A stretch of 35,549 nucleotides of DNA from a virus: positions 1 through 35,549 of IMG/VR virus record IMGVR_UViG_3300043425_000584; one strand, written 5' to 3'. The position numbers and the translations under genes were made by a program. Positions within the stretch are counted from its first letter, which is position 1. Each line of letters opens with the position of its first letter. Below are positions 5,867 to 33,835 of this stretch, in pieces. The notes beneath the pieces were generated by a model. The model did no database searches. It had not been told where the DNA came from and saw only the letters and a list, made by a program, of their open reading frames with translations.

Positions 5867-5890
5867 AATAAATTATTAAATTTGAATAAA

Positions 5891-8109: not shown

Positions 8110-8574
8110 ATGGCAGATGGATCAACATACGGTATAAATTTTCCTTTTAGAGATAATCCTTTAGGATATTATTTTTCATTATCTGAAACTACGGATGAAG
8201 AAATAAGATCAAATTTATTACATTTAATTTTAACAAAAAAAGGTAGTAGGTATTTTTTGCCTGATTTTGGTACAAGAATATATGAATATATATTTGACCC
8301 ATTTGATGGTGAAACTTTCGAGGCGATAAAATCAGACATCCAAGCACAAGTTGATAAGTATATACCAAATTTAATAATTAATAATATATCAGTAACACCT
8401 TATTTACAATCTGACGAAGCTCCTGGTGAAATTAATCAAGAATTATTAGGACAAAGTGATATATATAGAATACCCGGTGCTAATACAGAAGAATACACCG
8501 CTAAATTAAGAATAGATTACACTAACGATAATAGTGGTTTTGGTTCTAGAGAGTTTATAATAATTAATATCTAA
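8110..8574 (+). CDS. 25: Baseplate wedge protein gp25
   Basis: 154 residues, near T4 gp25 (132). Belongs to the GPW/gp25 family: a baseplate wedge component contacting the inner sheath end. The family signature is clear: DEEIRSNLLHLILTKKGSRYFLPDFGTRI-type sequence at about residues 29-58, including the GxR...PxFG core, then YEYIFDPFD. The usual C-terminal strands carry a short insertion around residues 95-125. First gene after the terminator, 2 bp before the gp6-like gene, the standard gp25-gp6 order of contractile-tail phages. Confidence 0.93.
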   Translation: MADGSTYGINFPFRDNPLGYYFSLSETTDEEIRSNLLHLILTKKGSRYFLPDFGTRIYEYIFDPFDGETFEAIKSDIQAQVDKYIPNLIINNISVTPYLQSDEAPGEINQELLGQSDIYRIPGANTEEYTAKLRIDYTNDNSGFGSREFIIINI

Positions 8575-8575
8575 T

Positions 8576-10414
8576 ATGGCAACAAATAAAATTAACTACA
8601 CAAGTAGAGATTTTGAAAGTCTTAGACAAGATTTAATAAATTATGCACAACAATATTATCCTGAAGTTGTGCAGAATTTTAATGACGCGTCGATTTTTTC
8701 TGTTTTAATGGATTTAAACGCGGCAATTGGAGACAACTTACATTATCATATTGATAGAAGTATTCAAGAAACCGTCTTACAATATGCGCAACAAAGATCA
8801 TCAATTTATAATATTGCAAGAACTTATGGATTAAAAATACCCGGTTTTAGACCTTCAGTTGCTTTAGCCGACATTTCAATAGAAGTACCAGCATTTGGAG
8901 ATAGTGAGGACACAAGATATTTAGGTATTTTAAGAACAGGAGCACAATTTAACGGAGGAGGTAATATTTTTGAAACTGTATATGACGTTGATTTCTCAAC
9001 ACAATATAATAGTGACGGAGTAGTTAATAGAACTAAAACCCCGATTTTTGATAATAATAATAAGATTACGGGATACATCATGACAAAAAGAGAAGTTGTG
9101 GTTAATGGTGTGACTAGAGTTTTTAAAAGAGTAATTAACCCAAGTGATGTTGTACCTTTCTTTAATTTCTTCTTACCCGAAAAAAATGTTTTGGCCGTTA
9201 GTGCCGTCATTCAAAAAGACGGAACACAATACCAATCAACACCACCACCATCAGAATTTGCCACATCACAAAATAAATGGTACGAAGTTGATGCGTTAGC
9301 AGAAGACACCGTATTTATTGAGGACCCAACAAAACCAATCGATTCTGCCGGTATAAAAGTAGGTAAATATATAAAAACTGACAATAGATTTGTAACTGAA
9401 TATACCCCTGAAGGTTATATGAAATTACAATTTGGGGGAGGAACTACAACGCCAAATCAACAACTTCAAAATTTTGCAAGTTTAGGAGTACCTTTAAATA
9501 TTCAAAACTACCAAAACAATATTGGTTTAGGGTTAACGGTAACACCAAACACCACTTTATTTGTTCAATATAGAGTTGGTGGGGGACTATCATCTAATGT
9601 CGGAGTTGGTTCAATAAATCAAGTAGGGACTGTAACACTTTCAGTAAATGGGCCTTCAGATGTAATAAACTCAAACGTTGTTAGATCATTAAAAGTAAAT
9701 AACGTCACATCGGCTGTTGGAGGAGCAAACCCACCAACAACTGAAGAAGTTAGAAACATGGTGTCATTTAATTTTGCTGCACAAAAAAGAGCGGTAACGG
9801 TTAATGATTATAAATCTTTAATTGACACAATGCCTGGTAAATTTGGAGCACCAGCAAAAGTTGCAATTACTGAAAATAATAATAAAATTACCGTTCAGAT
9901 AATATCATATGATTCTGATGGTAATTTAACCCAAGATGTTCCTGACACACTTAAAGATAATTTGGCAACATATCTTTCTAAATATAGAATGATAAATGAC
10001 TACATATCAATTGATGTTGCAAAAGTTATTGATTTAGAATTTGAAATATCTGTAGTTATTGAAAATAACACATCACAAAGCCAAATAATTACAGAAGTAA
10101 TTGATGCGGTTTCAAACTATATGTTACCATCTAATAGAGATTTAGGTCAAAATGTGAATGTTTCAGATGTGAGAAAATTAATACAAAACACGGCAGGAGT
10201 AATTACACTATCTGATTTAAAAATTTATAATAAAGTTGGTGGTTTATATTCGTCTTCTGAAACATCACAAAGATATTCAGATAATGAAACAAAAGAAATA
10301 CAACTAATAGACGATACTATTTTTGCCGAGCCCGACCAAATATATCAAATAAGGTTCGATTCAAGAGATATAAATGTTAGAGTTAAACAACTCAGAACAG
10401 TAGACTTTTCTTAA
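8576..10414 (+). CDS. 6: Baseplate wedge protein gp6 (baseplate J-like)
   Basis: 612 residues versus 660 for T4 gp6. Forms the iris around the baseplate hub by dimerising between wedges. Starts with the characteristic INYTSRDFESLRQDLINYAQ, then a helical region with LMDLNAAIGDNLHYHIDR at about 42-60. The C-terminal half has FNFAAQKRAVTVNDYKSLI (near 400) and TVQIISYDSDG, typical of the J/gp6 fold. Two bp separate it from gp25, giving coupled translation. After it there is a 74-bp gap with an AT-rich motif before the next gene. Confidence 0.92.
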   Translation: MATNKINYTSRDFESLRQDLINYAQQYYPEVVQNFNDASIFSVLMDLNAAIGDNLHYHIDRSIQETVLQYAQQRSSIYNIARTYGLKIPGFRPSVALADISIEVPAFGDSEDTRYLGILRTGAQFNGGGNIFETVYDVDFSTQYNSDGVVNRTKTPIFDNNNKITGYIMTKREVVVNGVTRVFKRVINPSDVVPFFNFFLPEKNVLAVSAVIQKDGTQYQSTPPPSEFATSQNKWYEVDALAEDTVFIEDPTKPIDSAGIKVGKYIKTDNRFVTEYTPEGYMKLQFGGGTTTPNQQLQNFASLGVPLNIQNYQNNIGLGLTVTPNTTLFVQYRVGGGLSSNVGVGSINQVGTVTLSVNGPSDVINSNVVRSLKVNNVTSAVGGANPPTTEEVRNMVSFNFAAQKRAVTVNDYKSLIDTMPGKFGAPAKVAITENNNKITVQIISYDSDGNLTQDVPDTLKDNLATYLSKYRMINDYISIDVAKVIDLEFEISVVIENNTSQSQIITEVIDAVSNYMLPSNRDLGQNVNVSDVRKLIQNTAGVITLSDLKIYNKVGGLYSSSETSQRYSDNETKEIQLIDDTIFAEPDQIYQIRFDSRDINVRVKQLRTVDFS

Positions 10415-19102: not shown

Positions 19103-20011
19103 ATGGCACTTGGAACATATGGAATAGTAAGACCGGCTGACGTTTCACCAGAAGATGTTGAGATAATATTACATTATACCGCATCAAGAGACGTTACTGA
19201 TAATTTTACTTTAAAAAAATTAAACACCGCAAACATACTTACACCTTATTTTCATAATAATAATACTGGCGGTAATGCTAATGTTGAGATTTTGGGTGGG
19301 TTATATAATTTAAGATTACCGTCTTCAGAGTTTAACAAAATTGGTATTTACACTTTAATGATAAGACCTGCTGAGATTAGAACAACAATATTAGATTGTG
19401 GGGTTTTATCTGCATTACCAAATGTTAAAGGTTTAATACTTGATATAAACCAAGTACCTTCACAATTTAGAAATAAGTTTGTTAACCAAGGATTGGTTGG
19501 ATTTAGAATTGAATATTTAAATGATGACGGAACTAAAACACCGAACTTTTATAGGATAGTAACTTCTTCTTTTTATTGTGAACCCGTTATAAGTGAACAA
19601 AGTAATACGTCACAAAAAGCAATAAGATATAGGTATGTTGATAACCCAACGGACTTGTTGTTTTTAACACTTTCACCATCAGCATCACCATCTAACAAAC
19701 CAACAGCAACACCATATATTGGACAACCAAATCAAAATATTATAATTACTAACACATTTTTTAATCCAATCACTATCGATATTCAAATGGCTGAACATGA
19801 TATCGATACGTTAGCGATTGCGTTATATGGTAATCAAACAAAAAGTATTGAAGACGGAGTATATACTCTTTATGATACGTCAGGTAATATTTACAAACAA
19901 TACAACTTATTTGAAATTAGAGATAACTTTAATGAGTTGTTATATGAGGTTAGACAAGATAGAGGTAATAACATCGATTTTAGTAAAAACTTTACAAATA
20001 TTATAACTTAA
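19103..20011 (+). CDS. Structural protein of tail block, unknown family
   Basis: 302 residues. Begins ALGTYGIVRPADVSPEDVEI, followed by LTPYFHNNNTGGNANVEILGG and a predicted beta core; a Ser/Pro/Thr-rich linker (SPSASPSNKPTATP, near residues 193-206) divides the protein into two domains. The C-terminal part ends DNFNELLYEVRQDRGNNIDF. I do not know the family; placement in the baseplate/tail run and the 1-bp overlap with the next structural gene suggest a virion role. First gene after a short AT-rich gap, so it may begin a late transcript. Confidence 0.77.
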   Translation: MALGTYGIVRPADVSPEDVEIILHYTASRDVTDNFTLKKLNTANILTPYFHNNNTGGNANVEILGGLYNLRLPSSEFNKIGIYTLMIRPAEIRTTILDCGVLSALPNVKGLILDINQVPSQFRNKFVNQGLVGFRIEYLNDDGTKTPNFYRIVTSSFYCEPVISEQSNTSQKAIRYRYVDNPTDLLFLTLSPSASPSNKPTATPYIGQPNQNIIITNTFFNPITIDIQMAEHDIDTLAIALYGNQTKSIEDGVYTLYDTSGNIYKQYNLFEIRDNFNELLYEVRQDRGNNIDFSKNFTNIIT

Positions 20012-22959
20012 TGGCTAAGAAAAAATTTTTATATCCACCAGCACCCCCAGTGGGATCAGATACCCCATTTGGTAATATTGTTGGGTTGCAATTAACCACA
20101 GGTGGGGGGTTAACGCAAGGAAATTTTCAATTTACGACGGCAGTTTATGAAAAAGTTAATAGAAAGTTTGACCAAGGTATATTTTCTAAAAAATATAATT
20201 TAGAAAACCTTGAAATCACTAATATTGCGCAAACAAAAAAAATAATACAAGAAAATTTTAAAGTATATCCTAACTTTGATATATCACAAGTGACCAGCTT
20301 TAGCCTATACGGATCGCTACAAAAAAGAATTTCAACGTCAATAACAAAAATAATTAACTATTTTCCTGCCGCTCTTGAAGTGAATTCTCAAACACTATCA
20401 TTAACAACCGGTTTAACTGCAACAAACATTGATTACGACCCTATTGAAAATATTACTTCTTTTGAGGTAAACGCGGCCTTCGCAAGAAACCCATTTGATA
20501 TTGACTACACTGTTTTTGCTGAAAAAAATATTGAGGTAAGACCAATTAAAGTTTCCCCATATAGAGATTTAACAAATAATTTTGAAGATTATGGGGTATA
20601 CATTAACGATCTGAGTATAGAATACGATATTTTAGATTTTGAACCGACAGAAAAATTAAATGAAGGATACATTTATTTAGTAGTTAACGGAGATCCATTT
20701 TCTGGGTTAACCTCAAGTACAAACACAATAATTATAAAACCAAACAACCTAAAGACTCAAGAAATTTTAAAAAATGACTTTGATGAGGTTGAACGTTTTT
20801 TATTAAACACCGAAACATCACCAAAATATACCGCTAATTTTAAGTACCCTGAATATGATGATAGTGGTGTATATGTGACTAAAAGTAAAAATTTAACGTG
20901 GACGTTAGATGGTTTATGGAATTTAGATATTAGAACGTCAGCATTTGAAGCATACCTTGACAATCTAAACCTTATAAGTGAAAATATCGATGAATACTCA
21001 ACTAATTTAATATCTAGATTTTTAGTTACTGGTTCGTTAAAAGAATTTGATACGTCTGATCAAAAAATGGAAAAAATACTTCAGTTGTACGGTAGAAGTT
21101 TTGATGAGGTTAAAAAATTTATAGATGCGTTAGGGTTTATGAATTCAGTTAACTATAGACCTAAAAATGACATACCATCACAATTATTATATAATTTATC
21201 ACAAACTTTAGGTATTGAAACAAACATATCACCAATAAATAATGAAGACTTATTAAGCTCTATATTTCAAACATCTACTGAAAAAATATATGCAGGTCAA
21301 TCACAAGATGCAACACCGGCAGAACTAAACTATCAATATTATAGAAATTTGATATTAAATTCTGCATACATGTTTAAAACAAAGGGTACTAGACAATCCA
21401 TAGAGTACTTAATGAGAATGATTGGTGCTCCTGACGCTTTGGTTGAATTTAATGAAGTAATATATTTGGCCGATACTAAATTAAATGTTGATGACTTTAA
21501 AGAAAGTTTAGCAACAATAACAGGTGGTACGGTTTATGTTGAAACACCCGCATTAGACCCCCAAAATACCTTTTCTATTTTAGGAGTAACATATACAGGT
21601 TTTACAACTGACGGCATTGTTGAAGATAATTTGTTTACTGAAGGAGATTATGGTATATCGAGCGACGGGTACCCAAAATCACCAACTTCAACTGACGATT
21701 ACTTCTTTCAAAAAGGATCGGGATGGTTTGAAAAATCACCTAAACATAGGTCACCACAGGAAGTGGACACTGAAAACTCGCAACTTAATCAAAACGAACC
21801 TGTGGTTATTACAAAATTAAAACCATATACTTTTGGACAAGATTATTTAGAAAGGTTTAGAAAGTTCCCTTTCATGAACCAAGGATATACCATAACAAAA
21901 GTGTATGACAATCAAAAATCTTGGGCGGCATCAACAACCGGTATTAGAAAAGATAATGCAAATTTTAATGGGGTTTATTATACGGTAGAAAACGATAAAT
22001 TAGTAATCAACTCTAAAAATATTGAACTTAACATTAATGTAGGTCAAGGGTTAATCTATGATGTATGGGATATGTCAGTTAAATATAACTACCCCATACC
22101 TAATAGTGGATTAACATCTCCATACCCATATCCCGGCGCTATTGATTGGACCTTCGTTAATCCAAAACCAAAAGAAAAAACGTTTTTTGAATTTGCTCAA
22201 ACATTTTTTAATAACTTAATAAACGTTAGAAATAGACAAACAATCACTGACGGTAAAACCGGAGGTTATCCAGCATTACAATCGATTTATTGGAAATACT
22301 TACAATCAGAACAAACGGTTGGCATACCATCCAATAAATTTACATACCAAAAAATGATTGATTTTACTTTAGGTATTGGCGATTATTGGCAAAGATTGAT
22401 CGAACAAGTAGTTCCTGCAACAACTTTATGGTTAACAGGACAAAAAATGGAAAATTCAATCTTCCACAGACAAAAATTTGTTTGGAGAAGACAAAGAGGA
22501 TGTCAATTCATACCTGTCTTATGTAAACCATGTGAATATAACGGACAGTTATTCGGTTATGATTGTATTGATCAAACATTAAAATGTAACTTATCAAGTC
22601 AAAACCCACCAAACCTTTTAAGTCAGTTATTAACAACACTTTTATCTAACAATGGGTACAACCAATCACAATGTGATTTAAATAGTATTGTTACGACATG
22701 GTTTGTTGATTGTCGTTTAGATAGTCAAATATTAGTACAAGAAAGTTTTTACACAGGATACGGATTTAATGATTACCCGACAAATAGTCAAGTTTTAACT
22801 GCAATTAACGATAAATTGGTTACATTATACCAATATGGATTAAATTATTATTTTGCAGGAAATACTTTAGTTGTTAGTAACTCAACATGTTATGACGACT
22901 TTACAAATAAAACATTATATCTAAATATAGGTATAGACATACAAATTAATTGTGGATAA
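20011..22959 (+). CDS. Large tail protein with a KGTR 'tail protein I'-like segment
   Basis: 982 residues. The N-terminus is Lys-rich (AKKKFLYPPAPPVGSDTPFG). Residues about 440-475 include YRNLILNSAYMFKTKGTR (KGTR at 458-461) and IEYLMRMIGAPD, which resembles the 'KGT' helix pair of baseplate-to-fibre adaptor proteins in the P2 gpI class; I treat that as weak evidence. The middle is mixed, and the C-terminal ~160 residues are Cys-rich (GCQFIPVLCKPCEYNG and following). It could connect baseplate to fibres: upstream neighbours are baseplate-like and the next gene begins the SprB-type fibre block. Both ends overlap neighbours by one base (TAATG). Confidence 0.78.
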   Translation: MAKKKFLYPPAPPVGSDTPFGNIVGLQLTTGGGLTQGNFQFTTAVYEKVNRKFDQGIFSKKYNLENLEITNIAQTKKIIQENFKVYPNFDISQVTSFSLYGSLQKRISTSITKIINYFPAALEVNSQTLSLTTGLTATNIDYDPIENITSFEVNAAFARNPFDIDYTVFAEKNIEVRPIKVSPYRDLTNNFEDYGVYINDLSIEYDILDFEPTEKLNEGYIYLVVNGDPFSGLTSSTNTIIIKPNNLKTQEILKNDFDEVERFLLNTETSPKYTANFKYPEYDDSGVYVTKSKNLTWTLDGLWNLDIRTSAFEAYLDNLNLISENIDEYSTNLISRFLVTGSLKEFDTSDQKMEKILQLYGRSFDEVKKFIDALGFMNSVNYRPKNDIPSQLLYNLSQTLGIETNISPINNEDLLSSIFQTSTEKIYAGQSQDATPAELNYQYYRNLILNSAYMFKTKGTRQSIEYLMRMIGAPDALVEFNEVIYLADTKLNVDDFKESLATITGGTVYVETPALDPQNTFSILGVTYTGFTTDGIVEDNLFTEGDYGISSDGYPKSPTSTDDYFFQKGSGWFEKSPKHRSPQEVDTENSQLNQNEPVVITKLKPYTFGQDYLERFRKFPFMNQGYTITKVYDNQKSWAASTTGIRKDNANFNGVYYTVENDKLVINSKNIELNINVGQGLIYDVWDMSVKYNYPIPNSGLTSPYPYPGAIDWTFVNPKPKEKTFFEFAQTFFNNLINVRNRQTITDGKTGGYPALQSIYWKYLQSEQTVGIPSNKFTYQKMIDFTLGIGDYWQRLIEQVVPATTLWLTGQKMENSIFHRQKFVWRRQRGCQFIPVLCKPCEYNGQLFGYDCIDQTLKCNLSSQNPPNLLSQLLTTLLSNNGYNQSQCDLNSIVTTWFVDCRLDSQILVQESFYTGYGFNDYPTNSQVLTAINDKLVTLYQYGLNYYFAGNTLVVSNSTCYDDFTNKTLYLNIGIDIQINCG

Positions 22960-25274
22960 TGGCGTGTATTAGTGGTTATACTTTAGGTGGTTATTATGAA
23001 TATGTGGATTGTTGTGGTATATTACAAACCGGAACCCAAAGATTTTATACTGAAGTTTGCGTAGATACTGCTTATAGTGGTTCTGTTGTAAATATTATTT
23101 TAGATACTGGTAGTACTTGTACCCAAGAATGTAATTTAGGTCCTTTAAATTATAGTTTTACTGTGACCGGTGTTTGTTATTCACCATCAGGAACAACAAT
23201 AATTACCCCAAATCAAGGAACACCGCCTTATACTATTAATAATGAAATACCAGGGACTTTAGGTTCACAATCAGGAATGGGTCCTTTTACTTTTTCGGGA
23301 CTAAGTGCGAGTACTTACGTCTTTAGGTTAAATGACTCTTCTGGTGGCATCAACGAAGACCTATTTATAAACGTAACAATAAGTGATTGTTACAAAGCAT
23401 CCATTTATAACGTAACCGGAACAACATGTAATCAAAACAACGGTAGTTTATATGTTAGTGCAACAACAACCGCTAGCCCTTACACTATTGTTCTTTTTAA
23501 AGATGGAACATACTATGATTTAATAACAACACCAACGCAACCATACCAATTTACTAATTTACCATACGGTTCTTATTACGCAACATTTATCGATTACGGT
23601 AATGTATCGGCTAGCACTGGAAGTGCGGTGATAGTTGCAAGTACTACCCCCGACTTTGGATTTTGGAAAGTGGATACCTCTACTTGTGTAATTGACCAAG
23701 GTAAATTGGCGGTTACGGGAACAACAGGTACGGGTCCTTTTACTTACTTATGGAGTAATGGGGAAACAACCCAATTAATATCAGGATTAACACAAGGGAC
23801 TTATTCATGTACAGTTACAGATAGTTTAGGGTGTTCGACAACTAAATCCGAAACTATAAATTCTGCGGACCCTTTAGGTGTTGGTTTGATTACGGCAGTA
23901 AATCCATCTTGTTTTTCTTCAGATGGATCGTTAGCGTATATAATAACAGGAGGTACAAGACCCCTTTATTATTCGGCATCTACCTCACAAGTTGGATATA
24001 CATTTGGAGACTCAATATTAATTGATAATTTAAGTAGCGGATCATATCTTCTTAACGTAAGAGACGCTAATTTTTGTGAGATAAATTTAACCGGGTTCGT
24101 ATCACCACCCAACGGATTTAATGTTGTTGATAGTGTGATTACTAATTCTAATTGTAATCAAAATGACGGTAGTATTTATGTTGAAATACTAGGTTTAGGT
24201 GGATTTTATACTTATGCGTTATCAGGACAAACAACAGGTACAGTACAAACAAACACAAGTTTAAACCAATCATATACCTTCAGTAATTTACCAAACGATA
24301 ATTATTTATTAATTATTTCGGGAAGTGGAACCGATTGTTATTACACAAGTAACATTACTGTAAACTCAGATCAAAAATTTACAATAAGCGCAACAACATC
24401 AGGTTCTACCTGTGGCTTTCCAAATGGTCAAATTAGTATTGAAGTTGGTAGTGGGTATACACAACCTTTAGATTACATATTAAGTAACGGACAATCTATT
24501 ATAGATTCATCTTTAACTTCATATACGTTTTCTAATTTATTTGCTGGAAGTTATACTGTGAGTGTTGTTGATGGTGATGGATGTAGTGTTTCTGAAAATG
24601 TAACAATAACAACCGCAGGTAGTTTAGTTAGTTTAATTAGTACCACAAATTGTACAAATGGTAGTAATGGAGAGGCTCAAGTTATAATCTATGACGGGAC
24701 ACCACCATTCACTTACCAATGGTCAAGTAACGTACCAAGTGGTCAAACAGGTTCTACCGTAACAGGCTTAACTGCAGGTACTTATAGTGTTTTAGTAACC
24801 GACAATAATGGTTGCACAAATAATCAAAACTTTAATATAGTTTGTACTGGTGTTTTAGTATCTAGTTATGAAATAATTTCTTTATGCCAGGATCAATTCG
24901 TAACAACAACGGGAAATAAAAGAGGGTTTTTAGAAATGTTAAATGAAGGGTTTATTGATTTAACATCGGGTTATACGAATTGCTATTTTAGTTCGGCAAC
25001 CTTTACGTGTGATGTTGACATTAATGGTAGCGCATTTACACAAACGTTTTATACCGCAACTACCCTGAATGATATACCACAAGATACTCTATGGCAGTCA
25101 ACAATTGAAAATATACTTTCAGGTATTTCAGATGTTGGAAGTTATAATGTCGATGTAATAAATAACCAACTACAGATAAAGTCAAATTGTAGTGGTGATT
25201 ATGATCCACTATCGGATGCGAATGTTAGTATAGGTCTAACAATAATTTATGATATATATTGTTTAACTCCTTAA
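22959..25274 (+). CDS. SprB-repeat adhesin-like tail protein
   Basis: 771 residues from ATG 22959, which overlaps the upstream stop as TAATG; an in-frame TTG 9 bases earlier is less likely. After a Cys-rich N-terminus (about 1-65) come roughly seven Ig-like repeats of about 75-85 residues. The clearest are PFTYLWSNGETTQLISGL with GTYSCTVTDSLGCS (about 260-294) and PPFTYQWSS with GLTAGTYSVLVTDNNGC (about 580-620). This is the SprB repeat pattern: conserved Cys near the start (NCxxxNG), G-PFTYxWS, G-L-AGTY-V-V-D--GC. Residues from about 628 form a separate domain (SSYEIISLCQDQ...). Such repeats are known in the Flavobacterium gliding adhesin SprB. No signal peptide, so it fits virion assembly in the cytoplasm, probably as part of a fibre. 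Confidence 0.85.
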   Translation: MACISGYTLGGYYEYVDCCGILQTGTQRFYTEVCVDTAYSGSVVNIILDTGSTCTQECNLGPLNYSFTVTGVCYSPSGTTIITPNQGTPPYTINNEIPGTLGSQSGMGPFTFSGLSASTYVFRLNDSSGGINEDLFINVTISDCYKASIYNVTGTTCNQNNGSLYVSATTTASPYTIVLFKDGTYYDLITTPTQPYQFTNLPYGSYYATFIDYGNVSASTGSAVIVASTTPDFGFWKVDTSTCVIDQGKLAVTGTTGTGPFTYLWSNGETTQLISGLTQGTYSCTVTDSLGCSTTKSETINSADPLGVGLITAVNPSCFSSDGSLAYIITGGTRPLYYSASTSQVGYTFGDSILIDNLSSGSYLLNVRDANFCEINLTGFVSPPNGFNVVDSVITNSNCNQNDGSIYVEILGLGGFYTYALSGQTTGTVQTNTSLNQSYTFSNLPNDNYLLIISGSGTDCYYTSNITVNSDQKFTISATTSGSTCGFPNGQISIEVGSGYTQPLDYILSNGQSIIDSSLTSYTFSNLFAGSYTVSVVDGDGCSVSENVTITTAGSLVSLISTTNCTNGSNGEAQVIIYDGTPPFTYQWSSNVPSGQTGSTVTGLTAGTYSVLVTDNNGCTNNQNFNIVCTGVLVSSYEIISLCQDQFVTTTGNKRGFLEMLNEGFIDLTSGYTNCYFSSATFTCDVDINGSAFTQTFYTATTLNDIPQDTLWQSTIENILSGISDVGSYNVDVINNQLQIKSNCSGDYDPLSDANVSIGLTIIYDIYCLTP

Positions 25275-25280
25275 TTAAAT

Positions 25281-25568
25281 ATGTCACAAATTTTAACAAT
25301 ATCAGGTGTTACGGGTGGTGTGCCGCCACTCACATTTTTTATTTGTGATCAAAATGGTAATAATTGTTCTTATTTAGGAAATAGTGGAGGAACATATACG
25401 GCATCCACATTTTACGCAAGTGCTTCTAGTTTTTTAATAAAAGTAGTAGACTCTAATGGTTGTTTAACATTAAAAACTGTCGACTGTCCTCCAGATACGT
25501 ACGTAATATTAACTGAAGATGGGTTTGATTTACAAACTGAAGACGGGTTTACTTTAGTGTTTTTATAA
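25281..25568 (+). CDS. Small single-domain SprB-like tail protein (paralogue A)
   Basis: 95 residues, 6 bp after the multi-repeat adhesin. It reads as one adhesin-type repeat: ISGVTGGVPPLTFFICDQNG, a central NCSYLGN, then FLIKVVDSNGCLTLKTVDC. The C-terminus repeats TEDGFxLxTEDGFTL, a short tail motif seen in other phage fibre-associated proteins. Two similar genes lie at 25587 and 29142. It may be a fibre-tip subunit or decoration; function is inferred from repeat type and position only. Confidence 0.75.
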   Translation: MSQILTISGVTGGVPPLTFFICDQNGNNCSYLGNSGGTYTASTFYASASSFLIKVVDSNGCLTLKTVDCPPDTYVILTEDGFDLQTEDGFTLVFL

Positions 25569-25586: not shown

Positions 25587-26030
25587 ATGCTTATTGAAAT
25601 TACAGGAACAACAGGTGGACAATCACCTTATGATGTATTTTTATGTAATACAGGAGGGACCTCTTGTTTTTATATTTCAGGTAACACCAACATACCACCA
25701 TCGATTATTATTGATTCTGATAATTATTTTCCTAATGAAGATTCTCTTTTACTTAGAATAATAGATACTAATGGTTGTGTATTTGACGAAATTGAAGATT
25801 GTAGTTCAGGATCAACCGGTACTTGTGTTTGTAATGAATATAATATTAAATGGGATATACCTGGAATACTTAGTTTCACATACGACCCATGTTGTCCTAG
25901 TGGTGATACAGTGACCCAAACGGTTGCATATCCCACACCACTTACATTCTCGTCTTCAACAACACCAAACGTCATTTCAGGGACAGGCGGATATATTATA
26001 CTTTTAGGTGATATTTGCCCGTGTGTTTAA
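25587..26030 (+). CDS. Small SprB-like tail protein with Cys-rich C-terminal half (paralogue B)
   Basis: 147 residues. Residues 1-75 parallel the neighbouring small protein: ITGTTGGQSPYDVFLCNTGG, SCFYISG, then LLLRIIDTNGCVFDEIEDC. A Gly/Ser linker leads to a second part with CVCNEYNIKW and YDPCCPSGDTV and an ending DICPCV. The cysteine content suggests disulfides or a metal site after release from the cell. It is the last gene before the glycosyltransferase and lies between fibre genes, so a fibre component is likely. Confidence 0.75.
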   Translation: MLIEITGTTGGQSPYDVFLCNTGGTSCFYISGNTNIPPSIIIDSDNYFPNEDSLLLRIIDTNGCVFDEIEDCSSGSTGTCVCNEYNIKWDIPGILSFTYDPCCPSGDTVTQTVAYPTPLTFSSSTTPNVISGTGGYIILLGDICPCV

Positions 26031-26066: not shown

Positions 26067-27266
26067 ATGAAAATTTTTGTACAGATAGCATCTTATAGAG
26101 ATCCCGAACTATTACCAACCATTAGAGATTGTGTTAGTAAAGCAAAACATCCGGAAAATTTAACTTTCGGTATTTGTTGGCAAAGAGACGAAACAGAATC
26201 TTTAGAAGAATTTACAGATGACCCAAGATTTAGAGTCATTGACATTCATTGGTCAAAAAGTAAAGGATTGTGTTGGGCTCGTTCTGAAATACAAAAATTA
26301 TGGGAAGGTGAAGAATATACTATGCAGTTAGATTCTCACCATAGATTTTTACAAGATTGGGACGAGGAACTGATTAATATGATGAATATGGTTGATTCAG
26401 AAAAACCAATTATTACCACATATGCCGGTATGTATAGACCAAGTGACAACAAACTTTTAAACGTTGAACCATATAAAATGGTTGCAAATAACTTCACACC
26501 AGGAGGAACCATTCTATTTTATCCGAACACAATACCAAATTGGGAAACACTTGAAAAACCAATACCCGCAAGGTTCGTAAGCGGACATTTCTTTTTTACA
26601 ATAGGAAAACATTGTGAAGAATACAAGTATGACCCCAACATATATTTTGCGGGAGATGAAATTAGTCTTTCAATTAGGTCTTATACGTTAGGATATGACT
26701 TATTTCACCCACATAAAACTGTTGTTTGGCATGAATACACAAGAGAAGGTAGGACGAAACATTGGACAGACTTTAATGAAGAAAATAAAAAATCAGGAGT
26801 CGTGGAAAAACAATGGTGGGAAATGGATCACGAGTCAAAACGAAGACTTAGGCACATGCTACAGGAAGAGGATAATAAAATTGATTTAGGTATATATGGT
26901 TTAGGTAATTTAAGGACACATAAAGACTATGAAGACTATGCTGGGATAAATTTTAAATTAAGAAAACTACATATTGAAACGGTAATTGGTACTGATCCAC
27001 CAATTAACGACCACACTGAATGGTACCTAGATGAAGAAAAAGAATATGAATTTGAATTTGACTTACCACATACCGAAAACTTTAAATTTATTTACATAGG
27101 GATTGAAAATAGTGGAGGAAATGTAATTTATAGGGAAGATATTACCGAATACCAAGAAAAGGTAAAAATAAGTTTTAAATCATTAGACAAACCTTACAAA
27201 TGGGTTTATTGGGTGTACGACACTACGGATAATTGGATAAATAGAAAAGATTTCATGATCAATTGA
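26067..27266 (+). CDS. GlcNAc-type glycosyltransferase (PF11397-like)
   Basis: 399 residues. Matches the GlcNAc glycosyltransferase family that includes the Dictyostelium Skp1 hydroxyproline GlcNAc-transferase: IASYRDPELLPTIRDCV (7-23), FGICWQRDETE (34-44), GLCWARSEIQ (67-76), the metal/nucleotide-sugar motif QLDSHHRF (87-94, acting as DxD/DxH), and YFAGDEISLSIRSYTLGYDL then HPHKTVVWHEYTR (193-226). Residues about 290-399 form a beta-rich, acidic extra domain of unknown role. It would transfer a sugar to a protein or glycan in the cytoplasm. It sits between tail-fibre genes, directly before the Pro-Thr-rich protein. The alternative is modification of host surface or of DNA; context favours a virion protein. 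It ends with TGA, one of only two TGA stops here. Confidence 0.86.
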   Translation: MKIFVQIASYRDPELLPTIRDCVSKAKHPENLTFGICWQRDETESLEEFTDDPRFRVIDIHWSKSKGLCWARSEIQKLWEGEEYTMQLDSHHRFLQDWDEELINMMNMVDSEKPIITTYAGMYRPSDNKLLNVEPYKMVANNFTPGGTILFYPNTIPNWETLEKPIPARFVSGHFFFTIGKHCEEYKYDPNIYFAGDEISLSIRSYTLGYDLFHPHKTVVWHEYTREGRTKHWTDFNEENKKSGVVEKQWWEMDHESKRRLRHMLQEEDNKIDLGIYGLGNLRTHKDYEDYAGINFKLRKLHIETVIGTDPPINDHTEWYLDEEKEYEFEFDLPHTENFKFIYIGIENSGGNVIYREDITEYQEKVKISFKSLDKPYKWVYWVYDTTDNWINRKDFMIN

Positions 27267-27296
27267 TAAAAACAATTAATAAAATGAAATTCCCAT

Positions 27297-27303
27297 TATT
27301 TAT
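27297..27303 (+). promoter_or_regulatory. TATTTATA motif before the Pro-Thr protein
   Basis: TTATTTATATAAAA lies 19 bp before ATG 27323, in the 56-bp gap after the glycosyltransferase. It contains the exact TATTTATA form. Confidence 0.35.
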
Positions 27304-27322
27304 ATAAAAAGTTAAAAACTGA

Positions 27323-29137
27323 ATGGCAAACATAATATTAAGTAGTTGTTGTTACAATCAAATTGTATATAGTGCGACTGGTTGGTCATATAGTACAACT
27401 TACTTAAGCTCGTACGAGATTACAGGGGATACTAACATTATTGACGGTTGTTATACTATCGTTACGGGTGTTACTGCTTCAGGTCCTTTTACTTTTGACG
27501 GTACTGCCGTAACAATTACAGGATGTACATATCCCCCATGTAGTGGATATTGTTGTAACGATAACGTTTGTATTGACATACCAATAGATACGTTTAGTGG
27601 ATATAACGGGACATATACTTTAGTTGGTAGTTATAACGCCGAACCATATTGGACAGGAGGGACCGATGTTGGGTATATATTTTATGACTCGACAAAATGG
27701 TGCATTGGTGATTCTTTAGGGGGTACTGCATTATTTTTTGGTTCTTACCCAACAAATAGCGGTTGTCCCGATTTTAGTTCGTCTTTTTATTATGATGGAG
27801 TTTGCGTACCAACACCGACACCAACAATAGACCCTTGTAGTATATTAGATTTTGATGTATTATTAGAATGTTTAATACCAACACCTACTCCAACACCTAC
27901 CCCTACTGCTACACCAACTCCTACTCCAACACCTACACCAACTCCGAACATTTGTTCGGCATTTACGGCAAGTATAAGTGTAGTTACCGTAGTAACACCA
28001 ACACCTACTCCGACACCTACTCCGACACCAACACCTATGGTTACAGTTATTCCTTCGGCGGATACCGTTACCTTCGTGATTGATAGTGGAACTTTCATAT
28101 GTCCAAGTATTAAAGAATTGGTAGACTGTCAAGATGGGTCATTATATTATGTTGACGGACCAATTACTTATAGTGGAAGTGGGGTAACAACAGGAACGAC
28201 GTTCTTAGTCGTTTTCAACGACACCTCATCAAACCAGATTAAGTGTGTTACATACACACAAAATACTATGGGATCACCTAATAGAAGTATTGTTGATGTT
28301 TTAGATGTTTATACTAGCGGTTGTACGGAGTGTGTTTTACCAACACCAACACCTACGCCAACACCAGCCCCTGATTGTTATTGTTATACCATCACGGCAA
28401 ATAGTGGATGTACGGTTACATGGACAGGTTGTTCAGGAAATTCAGAAACATTGGTGGTTACGGGTAATACAACATTTGGTATTTGTGCACAAGAAAATAG
28501 TGTTTCGTTTAGTTGTGTTACGGGAACAACAACCGTAGTTTCAGGATCAACATGTACGGGAGATACTGAATGTGCGATACCAACTCCGATATCATATCCT
28601 TCAGGAACAAGTTTTGTTTTCACATCTTGTACAACAAACTCGATGATAATACAAACAGCATATCCACCAACAAATATAGTTGCAAATGATGTTTTAAAAA
28701 CAACTTCAGGACAATGTTATACTTATGTAGGAAACTACGTGAACTACTCGCCACAACCGGGATATATAACAAGTAATATTAATGAATTTACTGCAACAAC
28801 TGCAACAACATTCAGCACTTGTTTAGATTGTTTAAAACCTGTACCTACACCAGCACCATCGTATAGATTGTGGAGGGCTTCAGGTGAATATTCTTTATCT
28901 TGTCCTGTATGTGAATTAACAGACTTTGGAGGTACTGTTTATTTCTATACCGACTACAGTGCAACAACTTTACAAACTGGAGTTTATATTTATGAGAATA
29001 GCGGATTAACAACACCAATTAACGTAACATATATTAAATCACCAATTAATCAAAGCGGAACCGCAAATTCACAGATATTCCAAGTTGACGGAAACGGAAA
29101 AATAACCTTCAAATGTAATCCAAACGGAAATTGTTAA
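27323..29137 (+). CDS. Cys-rich tail protein with Pro-Thr linkers
   Basis: 604 residues. Cys-rich Ig-like modules are separated by Pro-Thr linkers: PTPTPT at about 163-168, a 23-residue alternating Pro/Thr run at 186-208 with one Ala, another at 225-238, a shorter one at 340-350, and VPTPAPS near 507-513. Modules carry paired cysteines such as CYCYTITANSGCTVTW (about 352-368) and CLDCLKP. No signal peptide or membrane segment. By context it is a fibre or tail decoration. Pro-Thr linkers are typically extended and often O-glycosylated in exported bacterial proteins; the glycosyltransferase ends 56 bp upstream. It may be that enzyme's target. The 6- and 12-base codon repeats of the linkers are prone to slippage. 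Confidence 0.82.
   Translation: MANIILSSCCYNQIVYSATGWSYSTTYLSSYEITGDTNIIDGCYTIVTGVTASGPFTFDGTAVTITGCTYPPCSGYCCNDNVCIDIPIDTFSGYNGTYTLVGSYNAEPYWTGGTDVGYIFYDSTKWCIGDSLGGTALFFGSYPTNSGCPDFSSSFYYDGVCVPTPTPTIDPCSILDFDVLLECLIPTPTPTPTPTATPTPTPTPTPTPNICSAFTASISVVTVVTPTPTPTPTPTPTPMVTVIPSADTVTFVIDSGTFICPSIKELVDCQDGSLYYVDGPITYSGSGVTTGTTFLVVFNDTSSNQIKCVTYTQNTMGSPNRSIVDVLDVYTSGCTECVLPTPTPTPTPAPDCYCYTITANSGCTVTWTGCSGNSETLVVTGNTTFGICAQENSVSFSCVTGTTTVVSGSTCTGDTECAIPTPISYPSGTSFVFTSCTTNSMIIQTAYPPTNIVANDVLKTTSGQCYTYVGNYVNYSPQPGYITSNINEFTATTATTFSTCLDCLKPVPTPAPSYRLWRASGEYSLSCPVCELTDFGGTVYFYTDYSATTLQTGVYIYENSGLTTPINVTYIKSPINQSGTANSQIFQVDGNGKITFKCNPNGNC
27878..27946 (+). repeat. Pro-Thr codon repeat 1
   Basis: Sixty-nine bases of alternating CCN/ACN codons built from short units such as CCAACACCTACT; encodes residues 186-208 of the Cys-rich tail protein. 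The antisense shows a GVGVGV frame, which is a by-product of this repeat. Confidence 0.88.
27995..28036 (+). repeat. Pro-Thr codon repeat 2
   Basis: Forty-two bases with the same unit pattern (ACACCTACTCCG twice in tandem), encoding residues 225-238. Confidence 0.88.
28340..28372 (+). repeat. Pro-Thr codon repeat 3
   Basis: Thirty-three bases encoding residues 340-350, a shorter and more degenerate run ending in Ala-Pro. Confidence 0.8.
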
Positions 29138-29141
29138 AAAC

Positions 29142-29423
29142 ATGGCAACAACAGTAACAATAAATTCAGTAACATCAGGAACATCACCATACGACGTGTG
29201 GGTTTGTGATACATGTTTTGGTACTTGTCAATACATCAACACATTCACAACTTTACCATATAGTTTTACTTTACCATCGGTATATGAAACTTACCCATCT
29301 TATGTTGTTAAATTAATAGATGACAATGGGTGTGTTTATTGTGACGAGTTTTCACACTATAAACAATTTGAAGATGAAATACTTTTTGAATTTATGGATA
29401 ACATACCATATGAATTTGAATAA
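29142..29423 (+). CDS. Small single-domain SprB-like tail protein (paralogue C)
   Basis: 93 residues, 4 bp after the Pro-Thr protein. Same layout as the small proteins at 25281 and 25587: INSVTSGTSPYDVWVCDTC, TCQYINT, then YVVKLIDDNGCVYCDEF. The C-terminal tail is acidic and aromatic (FEDEILFEFMDNIPYEFE), unlike the other two. Three related small genes in 4 kb suggest duplication and divergence in the host-recognition block. Confidence 0.75.
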   Translation: MATTVTINSVTSGTSPYDVWVCDTCFGTCQYINTFTTLPYSFTLPSVYETYPSYVVKLIDDNGCVYCDEFSHYKQFEDEILFEFMDNIPYEFE

Positions 29424-29449: not shown

Positions 29450-29977
29450 ATGGCAACTCTAACAAGTAGAACTTTAGCTCAATCAACGGCAATAACACCA
29501 ACAACGTTGATACATATTGTAACAACCGCAGATACTTCACAAAGCGTGGATGGATCATCATATAAGGCAGAACTAAATCAAATTGCCGAGACTGTAGGAG
29601 GTTACCAATACTACACGGCAATTACAGTGTCAAGTTCAGAAATGTTAAGTATAGGAACAACACCAAAAAGTTTATTACCGGCACCCGGAGCTAACAAATA
29701 CTATGACTTCAAAGCACATATCGAATATAATTATGGTACAAGCGCATATACAACATCTAGCGTAGTTTTAAAATTATCGACAATTAATATGGGGTTTACT
29801 TTTAATATAAATGGAGTAACACAAAATAAAATACAAACAGTAGTTTCTGAATCTCAAGGAGGAGGAGTAAATTTAAATTCTGAGTTAAACTTAGGTAATC
29901 AAAATGGTATAGACCCAACGGGTGGTAATGGAACTATTAAAGTAAAAATATTTTACAATATTGTTAATTTTGGATAA
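29450..29977 (+). CDS. Fibre-like structural protein
   Basis: 175 residues. Thr/Ser-rich N-terminus (TLTSRTLAQSTAITPTTLIHIVTTADTS), a short 'SYKAELNQIAETVGG' helix as found near the start of trimeric fibre chains, then a beta-rich domain (about 60-175) with alternating hydrophobics and ending KVKIFYNIVNFG. No cysteines, unlike its neighbours. It resembles head-domain modules of tail fibres in composition, but I cannot name the family. It follows an AT-rich 26-bp gap and lies 6 bp before the next gene. Confidence 0.72.
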   Translation: MATLTSRTLAQSTAITPTTLIHIVTTADTSQSVDGSSYKAELNQIAETVGGYQYYTAITVSSSEMLSIGTTPKSLLPAPGANKYYDFKAHIEYNYGTSAYTTSSVVLKLSTINMGFTFNINGVTQNKIQTVVSESQGGGVNLNSELNLGNQNGIDPTGGNGTIKVKIFYNIVNFG

Positions 29978-29983
29978 TAAATT

Positions 29984-31603
29984 ATGGGATTATTAAGTGG
30001 AAATAGTTGTAATATAATAACACTACTACCTTTAGGGTTAGATTGTGATAGTATTAATGCTTCAACACCGGACGATACTAACGGATTAATTACATTATAT
30101 ATTACAGGTGGAACACCACCATATAACGTAAGTTGGAATAATGGATCAAAAGGTACATTACTAACTAATTTAAGTCCTGGAAATTATACAGCAACCGTTG
30201 TTGATTATTATGGTGATTTTAGTGCGACTACGACATGTACGGTAGATTATGATAGTTTTTATATTGAAGAATTTGAAAATTGTGTTGATAGTAGTAAAAT
30301 ATATTATTTGGCTGATTTACCATCTATATTTACTTCAGGCAAAACTTACGAATTAACGACTCAAGCCGGATGTTGGACAAGTAGTGGCACAACACTATAT
30401 ACGGGACAATCATACTTCAATCAATTTGCAGTTATTAATAGTGGACCATACGATAATTGTCAAGATTGTTTACCTGAACCAACACCAGGACCAACATACC
30501 CCGAAACACTTTGTTTAACATATAGAAAGGGAGTCACAATATATCAAACAACTTTTTATTCTGCAAATACTGTTAATAATTACCCATCGTGGTCAAGTGC
30601 GACACCACCATTTTTAGTTTATTATAGTACCGGAAACACAAGATGGGAAATATCAGGATGGACGACATATGGGGCACCTTATTACGGGGTTCCAACACTA
30701 AACAACCCAACACCACCACCAACAGGAGTTTGGACACTAAACGGTATAAATGGTTACACATTAACGGTTACGTCTGGTGTCTGTACGTCACCACCATTAA
30801 ACTTAGTAATAGAAACAACAAACCCAAGTTGTACAACATCTAGTGATGGTACAATATATGTTAATGTCACAGGTGGAAACGCACCGTATTATTACTCATT
30901 AGATAATATTAATTTTAATCCTACAAACATTTTAACAAACTTGGCACCAGGAACATATACTGTTTATGTAAAAGATTCAAGTGCGCCTTTCTTAACAACA
31001 TCACAAACAGTGGTATTAACACCACAAAATACTTTTCAAAATTACACCATCAATTTAACACAATTAAGCCAATCAACAAGTGCAGGACTAGGAACACAAA
31101 TTAAACAAACCAACTTTAGAATAGATATAACACCAGCGTTACCACCAACAAAAACAGTAACATTTGATATACCAATAGGAATATTAGTCACGGGTAATAC
31201 TACAACCTCTACACCAATAATTACAACAACGCAAAATAACACAATAATATTTCAAACATTTGGAACATCAACTGTAACAGGACCAACCACAAGTTCTGTA
31301 ACCACTACAAATAACCCAAGACCAACGCCATGTAATAGGGTGAATGTTACAACAAGCGCTTATACTCAAACCTATCAGGCATCAATAACGGGACCAGGAT
31401 ATATAACGGGTACTATTTCACAGTCATTAACGACTCCGTCTGTTATTGCGTCACAAAACGGATGTGCATTACAAAACACGTTAAAAGACACATTAACCAT
31501 TATAAACCAACAATTAAATCCTCCGACCTGTTCTCACTTAAATAGTGGTGTTACACCTTTAGTTGTGGAATTTAACAGAACGGGGCAGTTAATACTTACA
31601 TAA
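29984..31603 (+). CDS. Second SprB-repeat-containing tail protein
   Basis: 539 residues. One SprB-like repeat near residues 20-85 (DSINASTPDDTNGLITLYIT, GGTPPYNVSWNNGS, LSPGNYTATVVD) and another near 270-345 (NPSCTTSSDGTIYVNVTGG, PYYYSLDN, LAPGTYTVYVKDSS). Between them lies a Cys-containing domain with the short linker PEPTPGPTYP near 163-172. The C-terminal 190 residues are Thr-rich and low in complexity, with beta-like alternation, and end VVEFNRTGQLIL. No signal peptide. Likely a fibre or adhesin subunit working with the 22959 protein. Confidence 0.8.
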   Translation: MGLLSGNSCNIITLLPLGLDCDSINASTPDDTNGLITLYITGGTPPYNVSWNNGSKGTLLTNLSPGNYTATVVDYYGDFSATTTCTVDYDSFYIEEFENCVDSSKIYYLADLPSIFTSGKTYELTTQAGCWTSSGTTLYTGQSYFNQFAVINSGPYDNCQDCLPEPTPGPTYPETLCLTYRKGVTIYQTTFYSANTVNNYPSWSSATPPFLVYYSTGNTRWEISGWTTYGAPYYGVPTLNNPTPPPTGVWTLNGINGYTLTVTSGVCTSPPLNLVIETTNPSCTTSSDGTIYVNVTGGNAPYYYSLDNINFNPTNILTNLAPGTYTVYVKDSSAPFLTTSQTVVLTPQNTFQNYTINLTQLSQSTSAGLGTQIKQTNFRIDITPALPPTKTVTFDIPIGILVTGNTTTSTPIITTTQNNTIIFQTFGTSTVTGPTTSSVTTTNNPRPTPCNRVNVTTSAYTQTYQASITGPGYITGTISQSLTTPSVIASQNGCALQNTLKDTLTIINQQLNPPTCSHLNSGVTPLVVEFNRTGQLILT

Positions 31604-31630: not shown

Positions 31631-33835
31631 ATGTCATATATTATTAAAAATACCGCAGCATTAATTAACACTAAAATTACCGATTCTGCAAGAAAAAAAA
31701 TGTCACAAGGTAAATTTGACATCTCATACTTTCAGGTTGGAGATAGTGAAGTTTGTTATGATTGTGTAAATGGTTTAAATTTAAGTAATCTTAATGTTTT
31801 AATGCCACAAGATAATTCACAAAATCCGGCACCTGTACCTGAAAGAAATAGAATGAATATTAAATATCCGTTATTTTTGGACTCAACTTCGGGTGCAACT
31901 TATGGTATACCATTTGATGCATCATATATTGATAATGTTTTTAACACCGCAGCACCAAGAGGGTTTTTTAGTGGGGATAGTCTTACAGGATTTACGGTTT
32001 TAACCACATCAGCATATACAATAAACCCTAACTTTATTGTTAGTAACGCAACCATCTCAGGAAATATCATTACACTATCCTCAACAACGGTTAACCCAAC
32101 AGTTTCAGGGACAGTAACACCTGGTATGTTTTTGACTTTGTTTACTCAAAATTCAATTTCACCATTAAACGGTAACTCACCAATTTTTACGTACGTCGTT
32201 GTTGGAATCACCGGTAATACATCAACAGGTTCTACTGTAACAATACAAGTTGATAGACAATTACCTAATTTTATTACGATGGGATATAGTGGTAATAGTT
32301 CTGTAGTATTTTATCCTTCAGGAATGACGGCACTATACGATTCATTTACTCCTGAACCTTATTGGGACACCGATGCATTTAATTTTGAATCAAATTGTGA
32401 TATTGCACAGTCTGACGTAAAAGTTTGGAATATGAATAATCCTTGGACTGAATCACCAGCAGGGACGTTTAATACCATCAATCAAGATTTTAATCTATAT
32501 GCGTCGACAGCCTATACAGGATCAAAAGAATACTTTGGATATAATGAAAATAATGGTCAAACAGATACCGACAGTGTATATTACTATAATAGTTTTTTAG
32601 AAAAAATTACAGTACCGCCAATAGATCAAAAAGCGATTGCGATTGTTCATTATACGAATCAATCGATAGATAATTTTTATGGTGAAAAGTTTGCAATGCA
32701 AAATTTCGATCAGACAAATCCAGGAAATACTGGACAAGCAAGAAATTTTAAATTAAGTCTACCTTGGTTAATGTGGCATAAAAACCCAAATGGTAAAATG
32801 GGTGAAGATTTTTACACAGACCCATCCGGTTTTACTAGTTTAAATTTATTTGAGGTTCATTATATAAAAAGTAAAAAAGACATACAATTTAATAATCCTG
32901 GTTTAAGATATTACCATTTATGGGATACACACGCTAATTCAAACGGTTACCCAAATAGGGTTGGTAAGGTATTTCCTGACTATAAAATGATTATTTTTGA
33001 TGACGATGAAATAGTCGCTACATTAAATAATAAATCAAATAGGAATTGGACACTACCAGCACCTAAATTGGGGTTAGTAACACCAAATACGTTTAATGGG
33101 GTTTTAGGTGGAACCGCAGGTTTATTAACAGGAAGCACTGAAACATTATTTTTAACATATAGATTTAATAATTCAGCATTTACAAATTCGTTACACTGTA
33201 ACTATTACACCACAATTTCAGGTAACGACCAAAGTTTATTACCGGGGGCTTCAGATATTATTGTTAGATTCGGAAATGAGTTTCCTTTTTTAAATTCAGC
33301 ACCATCAGGAACACCATCAGGTTTTTCGGTGAACAACATGACAATATTGGCGCAAAAAGTACCAAGTGGGACAACAAGACCGGATCCTACCTTATGGAAA
33401 GAAATAACACTAAATAATCAATATTCAGCAACCACTTCAGGTGGGTATATGACACTTAATAGTTTGACTGGTGTAACATATCAGATTACAAAAAATATGT
33501 ACGATACCGCACCAATATACCAATTAAACAATTACTTAAATCTACCTGTATTAAATCAATCGGGAGTAACATTTAATTTTGGCGGTGAATATTTGTTTTT
33601 TGGTAACATACAAACCGATATTCAAGCAACGATTTATGTTATGAACTTTTTAGTCAATTTGGGACAAACTCAGTTTTTTGATTCTTCAAACCCAACATGG
33701 GACAACAGTAAAACACCATATATAACAGAAGTTGGTCTTTACAATGCTGAGAAAGAACTTATGGTTATTTCTAAGATACAGTCACCACAAAAAAGACAAG
33801 GGGTTCAACAGTATCCTATTAAATTTGATTTTTAA
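31631..33835 (+). CDS. Tail/baseplate fibre-like protein with ITEVGLYN signature
   Basis: 734 residues. The N-terminus (SYIIKNTAALINTKITDSARKKMSQG then FDISYFQVGDSEVCYD) reads like the virion-attachment part of fibre-family proteins ('ltdaGrkkla.G...i..fklGDse'). The last ~40 residues contain PYITEVGLYNAEKELMVISKI, the 'EiGLYd..g.Lvav.k' pattern of tail-collar fibre N-domains (DUF3751-like), here at the C-terminus. Between them is a long beta-rich region. It closes the fibre block; the resolvase gene begins 6 bp after its stop, so structural and DNA genes abut without a terminator. Confidence 0.78.
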   Translation: MSYIIKNTAALINTKITDSARKKMSQGKFDISYFQVGDSEVCYDCVNGLNLSNLNVLMPQDNSQNPAPVPERNRMNIKYPLFLDSTSGATYGIPFDASYIDNVFNTAAPRGFFSGDSLTGFTVLTTSAYTINPNFIVSNATISGNIITLSSTTVNPTVSGTVTPGMFLTLFTQNSISPLNGNSPIFTYVVVGITGNTSTGSTVTIQVDRQLPNFITMGYSGNSSVVFYPSGMTALYDSFTPEPYWDTDAFNFESNCDIAQSDVKVWNMNNPWTESPAGTFNTINQDFNLYASTAYTGSKEYFGYNENNGQTDTDSVYYYNSFLEKITVPPIDQKAIAIVHYTNQSIDNFYGEKFAMQNFDQTNPGNTGQARNFKLSLPWLMWHKNPNGKMGEDFYTDPSGFTSLNLFEVHYIKSKKDIQFNNPGLRYYHLWDTHANSNGYPNRVGKVFPDYKMIIFDDDEIVATLNNKSNRNWTLPAPKLGLVTPNTFNGVLGGTAGLLTGSTETLFLTYRFNNSAFTNSLHCNYYTTISGNDQSLLPGASDIIVRFGNEFPFLNSAPSGTPSGFSVNNMTILAQKVPSGTTRPDPTLWKEITLNNQYSATTSGGYMTLNSLTGVTYQITKNMYDTAPIYQLNNYLNLPVLNQSGVTFNFGGEYLFFGNIQTDIQATIYVMNFLVNLGQTQFFDSSNPTWDNSKTPYITEVGLYNAEKELMVISKIQSPQKRQGVQQYPIKFDF

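Follow-up and report, generated by a model that had tools for sequence, protein, structure and literature searches.

A replaceable sugar-modification cassette beside a Pro-Thr-linker protein in the tail block of large phages, and its possible role in mucin-type O-glycosylation

A conserved slot for exchangeable sugar-modification genes

In a group of large uncultured phages, the junction directly upstream of a gene for a Cys-rich, Pro-Thr-linker protein carries sugar-modification genes that are exchanged among relatives, most often a GT60-type glycosyltransferase. A preliminary description of this DNA proposed that the enzyme adds sugar to the linkers of its neighbor. Our analysis refines that interpretation and does not overturn it. 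A protein-directed type of O-glycosyltransferase and a conserved link to the Pro-Thr gene stand, and a replaceable sugar cassette beside the Pro-Thr protein describes the slot better than a fixed enzyme-substrate pair. The evidence partly supports a glycosylation cassette that is dedicated to a Pro-Thr-linker protein of the tail block and that contains a mucin-type initiating enzyme in most loci.

The window analyzed here is the entire 35.5-kb IMG/VR record (IMGVR_UViG_3300043425_000584; 35,549 nucleotides), and its relevant features are as follows.

8110-10414, + strand: baseplate wedge-type proteins, which mark the region downstream as the tail block
19103-20011: neighbor gene c10, used as an independent bait
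22950-25274, + strand: 774-aa SprB-repeat protein, an alternative acceptor candidate, with Pro-Thr runs in some relatives
25281-25568 (c0a) and 25587-26030 (c0b), + strand: two small adhesin-like ORFs that bound the cassette slot on its upstream side
26067-27266, + strand: PF11397/GT60-type glycosyltransferase of 399 aa, assigned from motifs, Pfam, PHROGs, and a structure model
27267-27322, + strand: 56-bp gap between enzyme and Pro-Thr genes, the site of a second enzyme (c8, HtrL/YibB, others) in relatives
27323-29137, + strand: Cys-rich Pro-Thr-linker protein (c2) of 604 aa, the putative acceptor and, from its position, a probable tail-fibre/adhesin
29142-29423, 29450-29977, and 29984-31603, + strand: downstream adhesin/fibre-like ORFs, the last with SprB repeats
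31631-33835: neighbor gene c7, used as an independent bait

Replication genes and the baseplate wedge genes lie upstream of the enzyme/Pro-Thr pair, which is flanked on either side by SprB-repeat adhesin-like ORFs. The Pro-Thr protein and three of its neighbors have no relatives, and hence no cultured relative, among 50,697 phage records.

The enzyme resembles polypeptide O-glycosyltransferases

All four motifs on which the family assignment was originally based (SYRDPEL, LDSHHRF, YFAGDEISL, and HPHKTVVWHEY) are present in the 26067-27266 ORF. Its match to PF11397 (228.6 bits; E = 2e-67) exceeds the curated cut-off of 21, and its PHROGs match is phrog_24687, 'glycosyltransferase' (1e-101). By sequence, the protein is a PF11397 (CAZy GT60-type) glycosyltransferase, with a GT-A catalytic part (residues ~1-300) and a C-terminal beta domain (~325-397). 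An AlphaFold2 model (pLDDT 88.4; pTM 0.77) places the predicted fold nearest to the polypeptide GalNAc transferases of the GT-A type, animal enzymes that initiate mucin glycans on Pro-Thr-rich stretches. The best 29 PDB entries in VIA-align are ppGalNAc transferases (Z 19.5-23.1 over ~270 residues), followed by a Leptospira glycosyltransferase (Z 18.3) and other GT-A enzymes (Z ≤17.1); the best Foldseek match has a value of 1.4e-12. Neither the enzyme nor the companion protein c8 gave a useful result when its sequence was searched against the PDB.

Residues 1-303 of the model align to residues 136-440 of GALNT2, such that D89/H91 fall on 224/226, E198 near 334, and H222 within two residues of 359. 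We take GALNT2 224-226 to be the DxH motif and 359 to be the metal-binding C-terminal histidine of the GT-A core. The corresponding set in the phage enzyme, namely the DxH (D89-S90-H91), E198, and the C-terminal histidine H222, is conserved, with D89, H91, E198, and H222 invariant in 25 relatives at identities down to 40%. The GT27 ppGalNAc transferases (GALNT2 and others) are the closest solved structures, with catalytic and metal residues at matching positions in the predicted model, at an identity of ~16% and with PDB alignments that span model residues 1-321 and barely enter the C-terminal part. In GT27 enzymes, the catalytic domain is followed by a ricin-type beta-trefoil lectin domain. 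The C-terminal part of the phage enzyme is ~75 aa long and has six strands in the predicted model.

GT27 and GT60 share a DxH in place of DxD and the O-glycosylation of polypeptide Ser/Thr (GT-A survey, PMC7185993). In Trypanosoma cruzi and Dictyostelium, enzymes of the GT60 type (family membership, PMC6939170) attach alpha-GlcNAc to Thr residues in mucin-like proteins (PMC3769586). The phage enzyme resembles the GT60 alpha-GlcNAc transferases T. cruzi TcOGNT-2, Dictyostelium Gnt2, and Skp1 Gnt1 in its PF11397 domain, DxH, and predicted retaining GT-A type; for the Thr-directed members, the acceptors are Thr-rich mucin-like proteins (PMC3769586, PMC6939170, PMC7185993). Unlike these enzymes, it is phage-encoded, presumably cytoplasmic, extended by a C-terminal beta domain, and adjacent to its proposed acceptor. 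Because family and fold both point that way, protein Thr is the suggested target.

Pro-Thr runs in the neighboring protein are conserved at the protein level

The gene that starts 56 bp past the enzyme encodes a protein with 35 Cys, as first described, and five (PT)3+ runs (residues 163-168, 186-195, 197-208, 225-238, and 340-348), compared to an average of 0.0035 expected from residue shuffling. No other ORF of the window contains a (PT)3+ run. The linkers keep their positions across 16 relatives in which the flanking domains share only 50-65% identity. Codon variety within the runs equals that in the rest of the gene, which rules out a DNA microsatellite as their source, and 11% of adjacent PT hexamers are identical, compared to 16% expected from independent codons. 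The varied codons and seldom identical adjacent hexamers imply that the runs are under protein-level selection. The structure model of this protein is poor (pLDDT 64; pTM 0.24), and the linker region is unstructured in it.

The neighbor had been described as a virion protein. Its position in the tail/baseplate/adhesin block suggests that it is present in the virion, and database searches gave no match marking ORF 27323-29137 as a virion protein.

Slot occupants are replaced while the position is retained

We collected 55 relatives of the enzyme from viral contigs and, as an enzyme-independent control, 160 loci retrieved via c7 and c10. In the c7/c10-retrieved loci, GT60 or c8 occupies the c0b-c2 junction in 43 of 49 contigs and the junction between a fibre gene (c17) and c2 in 11 of 11. 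In total, one or the other precedes the Pro-Thr gene in 54 of 60 contigs, compared to none at ~1,000 other junctions of the block, where the loci are related and the counts are not independent events. The six exceptional contigs have a GT29 sialyltransferase-like gene in the slot (Pfam 2.6e-22 for one). After dereplication at 92% identity, a sugar-modification gene was found in the slot at all 46 Pro-Thr (c2) loci, of which 37 have GT60 and 41 have a member retrieved independently of the enzyme; these loci too are related, not independent.

Among the 46 loci, non-GT60 occupants include GT29, GT34, GT10, HtrL/YibB, sulfotransferase, and other genes. Pfam assignments to slot occupants comprise HtrL/YibB, GT10, GT25, GT34, DUF3431, UDP-galactopyranose mutase, sulfotransferase, FkbM methyltransferase, and hexapeptide acyltransferase. 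The c8 protein has no Pfam or PHROGs assignment; its EDDVWC motif and position suggest a GT-A-like second transferase. The slot GT60s themselves fall into two distant groups of the tree, separated by enzymes from bacteria and other phages, and in one locus (L063) the Pro-Thr protein is 67% identical and the enzyme 42%. Occupants are therefore replaced while the position is retained, as a functional link predicts.

Two arrangements at the slot deserve mention. An opposite-strand GT29-like gene stands in for GT60 before the Pro-Thr gene in L061, L065, L067, L078, L155, and L178. In L119-L128 and L136-L139, four to six sugar genes (GT10, methyltransferases, a sulfotransferase, and an acyltransferase) precede the Pro-Thr protein, and these cassettes could build decorated oligosaccharides.

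The Pro-Thr runs persist at loci whose slot has a GT29- or GT34-type gene and in which GT60 is not visible, implying that they are independent of GT60 in cis. Their retention whichever enzyme is present would also fit a cassette that glycosylates virion proteins with a different main acceptor, either the SprB-repeat adhesins (22950-25274 and 29984-31603) or the variable fibre gene that frequently sits immediately upstream of the enzyme. These genes border the slot on both flanks, and in several relatives they contain Pro-Thr or collagen-like GSSGTNGT stretches. However, the slot directly precedes the Pro-Thr gene and is absent between other adhesins, and the bacterial enzyme is likewise accompanied by P/T/S-rich proteins (see below). 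We consider a main acceptor outside the Pro-Thr linkers unlikely.

Association of the enzyme with Pro-Thr runs in other phages

PF11397 is present in 16 of 17 large phage contigs, also in those picked regardless of the enzyme. Where relocated, the enzyme is still beside Pro-Thr runs in some lineages (0.27 kb in G033 and 0.76 kb in G030) and far from them in others (10 kb in G029 and 62 kb in G031). Outside the conserved gene order, the enzyme lies only slightly nearer to Pro-Thr runs than chance would place it (combined p = 0.008; 0.06 when fragments <40 kb are excluded), and among GT60-bearing phage fragments, seven of 38-97 kb contain no Pro-Thr run. For both reasons, the enzyme is not everywhere tied to an adjacent Pro-Thr gene. 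The co-occurrence that the preliminary description had predicted thus reaches far beyond this contig as a conserved slot and recurs in bacteria, but it fails in several phage fragments. Wide occurrence of the enzyme without Pro-Thr proteins had been named as an observation that would count against the pairing, and this is in part what those fragments and most bacterial loci show, which weakens the original reading.

This weak linkage in other phage lineages, together with the fibre genes and other variable ORFs that the slot also admits, raises the question of whether the slot is a mere cargo-gene hot spot with the Pro-Thr protein as a bystander. We regard this as improbable, given that cargo besides fibre genes consists nearly entirely of sugar-modification genes that occur at none of the other junctions, that the large contigs keep the enzyme even where it has moved, and that the co-localization recurs in bacteria.

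It was also necessary to consider phage DNA or host surface glycans as targets, which would imply a role in anti-restriction or superinfection exclusion. Phage glycosyltransferases frequently have such roles, the enzyme adjoins a carbamoyltransferase in phage XacN1, and thymidylate-synthase-family genes occur in 9 of the 17 large contigs. By contrast, the enzyme belongs to a polypeptide-transferase family with a corresponding predicted fold and sits in the late tail block, in agreement with the original argument from its location in the fibre block. In addition, a carbamoyltransferase and GT60 lie beside a Pro-Thr-rich leader protein in the bacterium Jiulongibacter (L237). Such a target therefore appears very doubtful. 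DNA hypermodification was rejected as a candidate: TET/JBP matches were found in 0 of 17 contigs in a search run without a positive control, and the thymidylate synthase genes are uninformative.

The large contigs also bear on the acceptor residue. The preliminary description had cited the modification of hydroxyproline in Skp1, which would call for a prolyl hydroxylase. Within the phage contigs themselves, which leave a host enzyme outside the count, prolyl-hydroxylase-type PF13640 is present in 3 of 17 and in 2 of the 16 with the enzyme. The partner of the Hyp-specific Gnt1 route is thus missing from 14 of 17, which disfavors a hydroxyproline acceptor and makes Thr the likelier one. GT27 enzymes prefer Pro beside Thr, and by analogy PTPTP would be a good type of acceptor.

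L025 and L045 (L045:19473-20531) encode a 352-aa protein with ~100 residues of nearly pure Pro-Thr followed by a domain, c25, that is common to GT60 neighbors in L043 and L044. The L024 contig (34,097 bases) has Pro-Thr runs at either end, directly before GT60, as if one repetitive gene had been split by circularization or assembly.

P/T/S-rich genes lie near GT60 in bacteria

We examined 77 bacterial loci of the enzyme family and scored P/T/S-rich 20-mers. Of 402 genes lying no more than three genes from GT60, 20 were P/T/S-rich, compared to 0 of 433 farther away (p = 3.5e-7; 18 loci). When Burkholderiales and one phage-like locus were left out, the counts were 13 of 279 compared to 0 of 316 (p = 4.6e-5). 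Most bacterial GT60 loci have no Pro-Thr run within 8 kb, and the candidate acceptors are mutually unrelated proteins. This co-localization is the strongest support from beyond the phage clade for an association between the enzyme and Pro-Thr-rich proteins. Companions of the phage type also occur, with HtrL/YibB in L232 and the carbamoyltransferase in L237.

The neighbors are of several kinds. In L227, L232, L237, L266, and L272, the gene beside GT60 encodes a short protein in which Pro-Thr/Ser repeats come after a twin-arginine-like leader, possibly a secreted mucin-like protein; another short Pro/Thr/Ser family is near GT60 in L264 and L270. In L230, L239, L242-L246, L249, L254, L257, L261, and L273, from Burkholderiales and one Neisseriaceae, GT60 is in or beside T6SS clusters (TssF, TssG, and PAAR), where VgrG spikes have Pro-rich tails that are pure (PT)n in a few cases.

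Proposed mechanism and comparison with known systems

We propose that the enzyme would act on protein as a metal-dependent GT-A transferase of the GT60/GT27 type and place a first HexNAc (GlcNAc or GalNAc) on Thr in the Pro-Thr linkers of the adjacent tail-block protein, and perhaps of other Pro-Thr-rich fibre proteins. The sugar would be added in the cytoplasm, either ahead of virion assembly or in its course. Among relatives, swappable slot enzymes (c8, HtrL/YibB, GT10, GT25, GT29, and GT34), and likewise UDP-galactopyranose mutase, sulfotransferase, and FkbM methyltransferase, would extend this sugar, cap it, or take its place. The resulting virion would have a mucin-like linker with a glycan that differs among phages and may confer stiffness, protease resistance, or altered recognition. 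On balance, we favor this reading, in which a mucin-type O-HexNAc transferase primes linker Thr and the glycan is then lengthened or capped by exchangeable enzymes.

A broader reading, which we advance more tentatively and at somewhat less than even odds, is that mucin-type O-glycosylation exists in prokaryotes, such that phage and bacterial GT60s prime Pro-Thr/Ser-rich tracts in secreted proteins and in proteins related to contractile tails, namely phage fibres, T6SS VgrG tails, and mucin proteins with Tat-like leaders, and replaceable elongating enzymes give phage-specific virion glycans.

Virion glycosylation has been demonstrated in few phages, and we know of no shown case of mucin-type (GT60/GT27-like) O-glycosylation in any phage or bacterium. 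A phrase search of the open literature found no phage work on PF11397/GT60. In mycobacteriophages, work by Freeman et al. in 2023, cited in PMC12619734, is said to have described virion glycosylation in which phage-encoded transferases modify capsid and tail proteins; these transferases and acceptors reportedly differ from those proposed here, and to our knowledge that system includes no mucin-type Pro-Thr acceptor or GT60-type enzyme.

If the proposal is true, a very widespread group of uncultured large phages has variable mucin-like tail glycans made by exchangeable cassettes. This would have consequences for host recognition and for escape from glycan-reading host defences or receptors, and it would touch on the question of where eukaryotic mucin-initiating enzymes came from. 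A single enzyme and a single 24-residue peptide (PTPTPTPTPTPTPTP) suffice for a direct test of the reading.

The SprB repeats in the probable phage fibres 22950-25274 and 29984-31603 are those of the gliding-motility adhesins of Bacteroidota. From these repeats and by analogy with the moraphages, large aquatic phages of Bacteroidota, the host of the present clade is probably also a member of the Bacteroidota. Habitat and probable host are similar in the two groups, and four core orthologous groups of moraphages are putative glycosyltransferases; the part of that account drawn on here proposes no Pro-Thr acceptor or slot (PMC12619734). The ribonucleotide reductase of the window (5882-7750) is 69% identical to that of Microcystis phage Mel-JY01, far above any match of a tail gene.
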